Below, one piece after another: positions 10,929 through 47,656 of a stretch of DNA of 64,000 nucleotides. The stretch's first letter is position 1; each line of letters begins with the position of its first letter. Source of the DNA: Halococcus salifodinae DSM 8989 (GTDB lineage: Archaea > Halobacteriota > Halobacteria > Halobacteriales > Halococcaceae); assembly GCF_000336935.1 (NCBI RefSeq), contig NZ_AOME01000076.1, forward strand, positions 72,511 through 136,510. The letters run 5' to 3'. The notes under the pieces were generated by a model that was not told the DNA's origin, searched no databases, and worked only from the letters and a program-made list of their open reading frames with translations. Position numbers and translations under genes: made by a program.

Positions 10929-11106
10929 TGGCTGTCGCGGTGCGGTGCTAGACGGTAGTGCCAGTGATTGCACCGCGAACGAGGCCGAAGGCCGAGTGAG
11001 CGGGCCGAGGAACCTCCGAGCGGAGCGAGGGGGTGACGACGGCTTTTGGTCCAGATTTTGCCAGCGAGTGAGCGACCGTAGGGAGCGAACGAGCGCAGCA
11101 AAAGGT
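10929..11106 (+). repeat. Dispersed intergenic repeat module B, copy 1
   Basis: Blocks in order are GTCGCGGTGCGGT, CCAGTGATTGCACCGCGAAC, GAGTGAGCGGG, TTTTGGTCCAGATTTTGC, then GAGCGAACGAGC and GCAAAAGGTGG. The terminal TTTTGC and GCAAAA arms can pair around a purine-rich loop. Related copies are at 14656-14807 (reverse) and 51987-52230. Confidence 0.75.
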
Positions 11107-11109
11107 GGA

Positions 11110-11194
11110 AGTCCGCCCTCCCCGATTTGAACTCGTGAAAACGGTCCGACTCGCTTCGCTCGTCGGCTGCGACTTCCCTGCTCAAATCGGGTCG
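11110..11194. repeat. Partial tRNA-Tyr 3'-end copy inside an inverted repeat
   Basis: Bases 11110-11132 repeat exactly the 23 bases at 11236-11258, i.e. the acceptor 3' strand and T-arm of the tRNA-Tyr gene plus the two flanking bases, in the same orientation and 126 bp away. CCCGATTTGA (11121-11130) then pairs with TCAAATCGGG (11185-11194), with an inner CCGAC/GTCGG hairpin between. It lies downstream of the tRNA in the direction of its transcription. Confidence 0.8.
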
Positions 11195-11237
11195 GTTGGA
11201 CGTGCTTCCCGCTCGCCGTTGGCTCGCGGAGAAGTAG

Positions 11238-11311
11238 TCCGCCCTCCCCGATTTGAACGGGGGACAAGCCGATCTACAGTCGGCTGCTCTACCAGTCTGA
11301 GCTAAGGGCGG
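11238..11311 (-). tRNA. tRNA-Tyr (GTA)
   Basis: A 74-nt cloverleaf on the minus strand: acceptor CCGCCCT/AGGGCGG with discriminator A, D-arm GCTC/GAGC, anticodon stem GCCGA/TCGGC with loop CTGTAGA giving anticodon GTA, five-base variable loop TTGTC, and T-arm CCCCG/CGGGG with TTCAAAT. The C1-G72 pair is the expected archaeal tyrosine identity element. CCA is not encoded and no intron is seen. Confidence 0.98.
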
Positions 11312-47502: not shown

Positions 47503-47554
47503 GGACTCGCCGGGACCGAGCAAACGCGAAGCGTTTGCGAGGGTCGGCGAGTCC
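47503..47554. repeat. Partial tRNA-Ala 3'-end copy inside an inverted repeat
   Basis: GGACTCGCCGGGA at 47503-47515 repeats the 3' end of the tRNA-Ala gene (47586-47598) in the same orientation. It pairs through GGACTCGCC (47503-47511) with GGCGAGTCC (47546-47554), enclosing a perfect inner hairpin CAAACGC-GAA-GCGTTTG (47521-47537). It is located downstream of the tRNA in its transcription direction. Confidence 0.8.
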
Positions 47555-47584
47555 ACGACTGAACGAGCGAAGCGAGTGAAGGAG

Positions 47585-47656
47585 TGGACTCGCCGGGATT
47601 CGAACCCGGGGCCTCTTCCTTGCGAAGGAAGCGATCTACCACTGATCTACGAGCCC
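47585..47656 (-). tRNA. tRNA-Ala (CGC)
   Basis: A 72-nt cloverleaf on the minus strand: acceptor GGGCTCG/CGAGTCC containing the alanine identity G3-U70 wobble, discriminator A, D-arm GATC/GATC, anticodon stem CTTCC/GGAAG with loop TTCGCAA (anticodon CGC), variable loop AGGCC, and T-arm CCGGG/CCCGG with TTCGAAT. CCA is not encoded and no intron is present. Confidence 0.97.

Follow-up and report, generated by a model that had tools for sequence, protein, structure and literature searches.

Behind the gene for tRNA-Ala(CGC) in a 64,000-nucleotide (nt) stretch of Halococcus salifodinae DSM 8989 (contig NZ_AOME01000076.1, positions 72,511 to 136,510; hereafter the window) lies a short hairpin element that ends in a copy of the gene's own 3′ tail. 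This element is probably one unit of a family that occurs behind transfer RNA (tRNA) genes throughout the class Halobacteria; taken over the whole class, the pattern resembles a miniature, site-specific mobile element of a little-known type. In a unit, ~55-160 nt of non-coding DNA precede a copy of the host tRNA 3′ tail; the standard form is ~100 nt plus the tail copy, and lengths cluster at ~95-130 nt. The collection comprises 249 units at 38 isoacceptors, with 185 exact tail copies; units in relatives were gathered by similarity to units, and rates are unbiased only for the host genome (G000, 4.2 Mb) and the genomes G008 and G002.

Tail copies behind tRNA genes

The tRNA-Ala element belongs to type C, in which only the last 12-14 nt of the tRNA are copied and the order is inverted tail, a GACC-type stem, an apical hairpin, GGTC and the direct tail. 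The 13-bp tail copy reported in a preliminary description of the window, GGACTCGCCGGGA, is indeed identical to the gene's own end, and it matches the last 11 nt before the discriminator base at 11/11 positions. The inverted copy pairs with the direct copy over 10 bp (47503-47512 / 47545-47554), one more than the 9 bp first given, and the stem resumes as ACC/GGT beyond a 2-nt bulge. The inverted copy also fits the end of the tRNA gene without mismatch over 12 bp (47545-47556 / 47584-47595). Enclosed by this tail stem, as had been described, is a perfect hairpin of 8 bp (47520-47527/47531-47538) with a 3-nt loop; in relatives both its loop and its stem sequence vary and the pairing is kept. Folded as single-stranded DNA, the 61-nt element gives z = -5.95 against dinucleotide shuffles.

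From the two tRNAs of the window, tRNA-Ala and tRNA-Tyr, it had been suggested that such copies are a systematic feature; this is strongly supported, both by the class-wide occurrence of units and by a scan downstream of every tRNA of the host genome. The 48 tRNAs, collected with the Rfam tRNA model, were each tested for an exact match of at least 12 nt to the tRNA's own last 24 nt within 300 nt. Own-tail copies lie downstream of 17/48 tRNAs and upstream of 0/48, with 1.7 expected from the downstream regions of other tRNAs, the opposite of a chance-level result; inverted own-tail matches of at least 10 nt were found downstream of 11/48 and upstream of none (3.0 expected). Most of the copies are 21-24 nt long, beginning at the T-loop (G53) and ending at the mature 3′ end, and the near-complete tRNA sets of two congeners give the same pattern. 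Units are missing behind ~60% of tRNAs, and sister species differ.

The distribution was surveyed with a degenerate pattern that includes the T-loop, and so favours tail copies, and that needs no adjacent tRNA gene; it found at least 120 stretches in 84,980 species genomes. Among the matches listed, 80/80 are from Halobacteria and 77/83 hits have a tRNA 41-378 nt upstream in the same orientation, these 77 representing 28 isoacceptor kinds with mostly 21/21 tail identity; 4 of the remaining 6 lie within ~500 nt of a locus edge. A covariance model of type B units (described below) has matches in 236 of the 242 sampled Halobacteria genomes and in 69/73 genera. In a phylum-wide sample of 148 genomes, 22 are positive, all in the window's order, and the type B model has no match in the sampled genomes outside Halobacteria. 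Among laboratory haloarchaea, Haloferax and Haloarcula species carry units, for instance Haloferax prahovense at tRNA-Ser(TGA); genomes free of units include G040, G077, G212 and G025-G027. Type C is found in 29/39 genomes, at Ala, Arg and Gly tRNAs. A limited literature search of open-licence full texts returned no published description of these arrays. An oddity of the window and a curiosity known from one locus (rtT of E. coli) thus become a class-wide, quantifiable system, which points to an unrecognized recombination activity reshaping tRNA 3′ flanks and provides a natural record of site-specific insertion history at essential genes; the origin and removal of tRNA tail copies are now directly testable in genetically tractable haloarchaea.

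Fold of the units

The common order of a unit is the tRNA tail, a variable first hairpin, an inverted partial tail (the T-loop and a few T-stem positions), a conserved imperfect hairpin and the direct tail copy; the common kinds are named here type A (CAGGGAGTGAA...GACCGTG) and type B (GTCGCAG...ACCGTC). The type B covariance model was built from 12 sequences, searched and realigned, and the E-values of such home-made models are rough. Pairing holds in 95.7% of cells across 120 distinct matches, and the covariation score is 0.320, compared with 0.133 when shuffled and at most 0.085 with the partners slid. Fitting of the alignment to the structure favours this score; some pairs, on the other side, are undercounted, one inverted-arm column being misplaced by MAFFT. 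Pair 25/98, for instance, is found as CG 53 times, GC 47, AU 5 and UA 3. The inverted arm tracks its own tRNA past the T-loop, matching it in 82, 62, 45 and 40% at four T-stem positions, as against 55, 38, 26 and 25% for foreign tRNAs. Type C behaves similarly: for 29 matches with an identified tRNA, the own tail fits at 10.8/11 positions in the direct and 8.7/11 in the inverted arm, compared with 6.8 and 5.8 for tRNAs of other amino acids, and both arms fit the own tRNA in 72% and foreign tRNAs in 0.8%, at Ala, Arg and Gly tRNAs of many genera. The covariation score of type C is 0.284 against 0.119, from fewer sequences and an alignment less certain than that of type B.

The closest anatomical parallel is the E. 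coli tyrTV/rtT locus (Rfam RF00391), where tandem units behind a tRNA each end in a copy of its 3′ end. At tyrV of E. coli K-12 (L428) each 178-bp repeat carries an inverted tail copy (GGGGAAGGAT) ~61 nt in, before the closing direct copy, so that the three Rfam RtT repeats have the same inverted/direct order as the haloarchaeal units. However, rtT is restricted to one tRNA locus with three near-identical repeats, whereas the archaeal units are mixed and occur at tens of tRNAs across a whole class; cmscan, which detects three RtT in E. coli, finds none in the haloarchaeal arrays L159, L165 and L397, and the units match no known RNA family in Rfam. Membership in this or any other family compared here is not claimed.

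It is unlikely that the units act as RNA, being transcribed as tRNA trailers like rtT RNA with tail and anti-tail serving 3′ processing, termination or tRNA quality control. The strong covariation would suit this, as would the position of units, always behind a tRNA and on the same strand, the arrangement of tails in common with rtT, and the excess of G-T wobble over A-C in helix 1 of type B (55 G-T/T-G cells, 12 A-C/C-A). Helix 2, however, has only 3 G-T cells beside 779 Watson-Crick and 5 A-C, which is atypical of an RNA family; most tRNAs lack units, sister species differ at the same tRNA, and the inverted arm of the tRNA-Ala unit could sequester the tRNA's own acceptor strand. The wobble counts of the two helices therefore do not fix the strand or the kind of molecule. 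The proposal that the copies are processing or termination decoys found no positive support because of the unit-free majority of tRNAs, the variation between sister species and the near absence of G-U pairs from helix 2.

Empty sites, arrays and the proposed insertion

Within the genus, orthologous tRNAs differ precisely in their units. At Leu(GAG) there is no unit in G008, one in G000 and two in G002, with flanks conserved on both sides; G008 has empty sites at Ser(CGA), Asp and Arg(CCG) where those of G000 are occupied, again with conserved flanks and with clean joints. The tRNA-Ala site is empty in G006 and carries a unit of type B in G002 and of type C in both G000 and G008. At Arg(CCT), adding a type C insert and duplicating 14 nt of the tail turns the G008 sequence into that of G000 and G002. 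Arrays of 2-4 units exist, such as the four behind tRNA-Tyr in G020 (L165). Among 60 arrays with at least two units, 26 show greater decay in the last tail copy than in the first and 2 show the reverse (p = 3e-6); since decay is stronger in the distal copies, arrays grow at the tRNA. Neighbouring inserts are unrelated in 64/79 pairs and near-identical in 8/79, such as the pair of 104-nt inserts that G002 has at Leu(GAG). Such near-identical neighbours would be expected if replication slippage or hairpin-driven template switching duplicated units in tandem, without the help of a dedicated enzyme, and gene conversion kept the tails identical; this explanation is very improbable given that most neighbours are unrelated and that modules are common to different tRNAs.

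The favoured explanation, which is likely though by no means certain, is that the units are miniature elements inserted site-specifically at tRNA 3′ ends, in an integron-like manner with the tRNA as anchor and a recombinase supplied in trans. Site-specific insertion is argued from the precise joints, from growth at the tRNA and from tail cores that are identical to the regions targeted by classical integrases; recognition of a structure, as in integron attC sites, is argued from a fold whose outer arm matches the tail. Units would enter and leave exactly at the tRNA 3′ end, singly and with the newest beside the tRNA, and repeated entry would produce arrays of tail, insert, tail, insert, tail. 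The tail would act as the core of an attachment site, from the T-loop to the 3′ end (~21 nt) in the main type and over the last 12-14 nt in the tRNA-Ala type, and the conserved imperfect hairpin, with the inverted tail copy as its outer arm, would serve as the recognition structure. Folded or cruciform DNA would probably be read by a tyrosine-type recombinase, the strand and the chemistry of the reaction being presumed as well; units could be removed again by that enzyme or lost through repeat-mediated deletion, and a mobile or selfish role is presumed for them.

The likeness to integrons is an analogy only, and no attC sequence match is claimed: arrays grow at an anchor, and units end in an imperfect hairpin with a conserved core, a variable tip and paired outer arms. 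Here, however, a tRNA gene serves as the anchor and its tail as the core, and units almost never carry genes. An integron also has an IntI-type integrase beside its array, whereas of the three PF00589 genes in G000 one (contig C89) adjoins a unit-free tRNA-Met and none adjoins a unit array. It is suggested only tentatively, as a possibility open to considerable doubt, that Halobacteria have an archaeal counterpart of the integron, in which tRNA-anchored miniature cassettes use folded-strand sites to form polarized arrays at many tRNAs in nearly every species, with an outer arm either templated by the tail of the host tRNA or matched to it through selection.

Archaeal tRNA attachment (att) sites, used by integrases of the SNJ2, pNOB8 and HSTV-2 type, likewise involve the tRNA 3′ part, restore the tail and leave a second copy at the far end (PMC8371274); the units share with them the precise empty sites and a tRNA 3′ part that is directly repeated at either end. 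The acceptor-end core of SNJ2 is short, at 13-14 bp (PMC8371274), and resembles the part copied in units of the tRNA-Ala type. Elements at archaeal att sites are, however, multi-kb and carry integrase genes. Among haloarchaeal elements, MITEs, PATEs and SMRs are similarly short, non-coding, palindrome-rich, strain-specific and without an enzyme of their own, but they insert at many places, PATEs and SMRs without target duplication (PMC3119063). The units instead lie behind tRNAs with tail copies of 12-22 nt; dispersed insertion is not seen, as pattern and model matches with surroundings read lie behind tRNAs.

Several points weigh against the proposed insertion. No recombinase has been linked to the units; a chromosomal XerD-like gene by a methionine-synthase-like gene was considered and rejected, since it is present in nearly all genomes, unit-bearing or not, and so does not follow the units. 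No units were found in viral contigs, phage records or plasmid attP (the attachment site on the element), absence from databases being weak evidence, and the sole good plasmid match sits behind a plasmid-borne tRNA-Gly. A plain att reaction would overwrite the tRNA tail, making spread between tRNAs hard to explain; the tail of the new tRNA would have to be either corrected or exchanged afterwards, or duplicated at insertion. Empty sites could be losses by the kind of repeat-mediated deletion described for Haloquadratum; among the cases there, one involving a 22-bp repeat was remarked to be a partial duplication of a tRNA (PMC3119063). Lastly, the wobble in helix 1 would fit RNA too. Two closely related integrase genes were also observed near ParA-like genes in G000 (L032 and L396, contigs C89 and C102), each with an assembly N inside a repeated stretch of the reading frame.

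Spread between tRNAs is seen most clearly in an 88-nt first-hairpin module that lies directly behind Lys (TTT, CTT), Trp, Ile, Arg(TCG), Glu and a Ser-type tail in seven genomes. Its closing tail copy fits the local tRNA in several loci and is diverged or missing in others; insert modules therefore move from one tRNA kind to another. The module at unrelated tRNAs, with the local tail duplicated in several, would also follow from transposition with target-site duplication, in which a transposase or Cas1-like integrase makes a staggered cut round the tail (~21-22 nt, or 12-14 nt in the tRNA-Ala type) and repair duplicates it. Exact boundaries at the T-loop and the mature 3′ end would agree with such a cut, as would arrays polarized towards the target; casposons and CRISPR adaptation likewise duplicate their target on insertion, CRISPR-like arrays growing at one end, and casposons are known from tRNA 3′ ends. 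Target-site duplication is nevertheless unlikely: no common terminal inverted repeats are seen by eye at unit ends, unlike in casposons, and the internal inverted arm is complementary to the target's own tail, which blind duplication would not yield. Moreover, the displaced copies at Arg(CCT) and Leu(TAG) carry the nucleotide of a relative's tRNA (that of G008 at Arg(CCT)) where the adjoining tRNA differs, a pattern that single mutations could mimic. No cas1-like gene is linked to the units, although no search aimed at cas1 was made.

Recurrent decay of integrated elements, which the preliminary description had offered beside the two kinds of decoy, comes nearest of the three mechanisms; ordinary provirus decay is not seen, however, because the units are tiny, have a covarying fold of their own, insert and excise whole, and are absent from known halovirus attP of the tRNA-tail kind. 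That the units are remnants of ordinary tRNA-integrating viruses or plasmids with the middle deleted is extremely improbable. HSTV-2-like viruses do have a tRNA-Leu tail attP beside an integrase, and Arg(GCG) in the host genome has a 3′ half-tRNA copy 2 kb away; but this attP is a 3′ half-tRNA without the unit fold, unit lengths cluster in the range given above, and there are hardly any intermediate sizes: a search reaching out to 10 kb gave only 7 candidate copies of a tail farther away than 600 nt, mostly weak. Gene-sized units are rare, isolated cases in this search, with 2-3 candidates against ~250 short units. An origin from viral attP was rejected, exact-pattern scans of viral contigs and searches for phages having given only the HSTV-2-like tRNA-Leu attP without the fold, or nothing; no mobile element with the unit fold in its attL/attR arms has turned up so far.

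Three observations concern these loci. In HSTV-2, HCTV-6 and HRTV-7 (L296-L298) the attP is a tRNA-Leu 3′ half directly upstream of a XerCD/integrase gene. At 0.2-2.5 kb of L090 (G000:C78), tRNA-Arg(GCG) is followed 2 kb off by the 3′ half-tRNA copy and then by type B and type C units; an ordinary element that integrated at the anticodon loop has probably left this arrangement behind. At ~7.4-9.2 kb of L157 (G022:C4:318000-333000), a gene that by eye encodes an F420-dependent LLM-type oxidoreductase lies between tRNA-Tyr units, one of the rare units that bear a gene.

Features of the window

The coordinates of the two tRNA loci are collected below.

Table 1. Positions of tRNA genes and unit parts in the window
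Feature	Position	Strand	Remark
tRNA-Ala(CGC) gene	47585..47656	-	copied tail is the gene 3′ end, 47586-47598 on +
Direct 13-nt tRNA-Ala tail copy	47503..47515	-	GGACTCGCCGGGA, identical to 47586-47598; without discriminator base; distal end of type C unit
Inverted tRNA-Ala tail copy	47545..47556	-	CGGCGAGTCCAC on +
Apical hairpin of type C unit	47520..47538	-	GCAAACGC/GCGTTTGC, 3-nt loop
GAGCGAAGCGAG word	47565..47576	+	spacer between tRNA-Ala end and inverted copy
tRNA-Tyr(GTA) gene	11238..11311	-	second tRNA of the window, with type B unit
105-nt type B insert behind tRNA-Tyr	11133..11237	-	variable hairpin, inverted T-loop arm 11182-11191, conserved hairpin
GAGCGAAGCGAG tip of conserved hairpin in the tRNA-Tyr insert	11150-11161		
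Exact 21-nt tRNA-Tyr tail copy	11112..11132	-	GTTCAAATCGGGGAGGGCGGA, closes type B unit

The tRNA-Tyr insert is matched by the covariance model (G000:C76:83629-83705), its sequence being 1 of the 12 used for building. Tail copies were first described as locked together with GAGCGAAGCGAG words at both tRNAs; both are present at tRNA-Ala and at tRNA-Tyr, but of the 4 occurrences of the word in the window (0.03 expected) 2 lie away from tRNAs. GAGCGAAGCGAG is one common tip of a variable hairpin and not a defining part of the units.

A further hairpin family, approximately CCACTTTTTGC...GCAAAAACGTGG, is found at 11040-11110 (-) of the window and also at L098, L100-L105, L380 and L392; across the genus its members lie directly behind many tRNAs or behind the last tail copy, and they are possibly a terminator or another type of element. 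Elsewhere in the window, 21303-21370 matches the eL15 ribosomal protein leader family RF03144.
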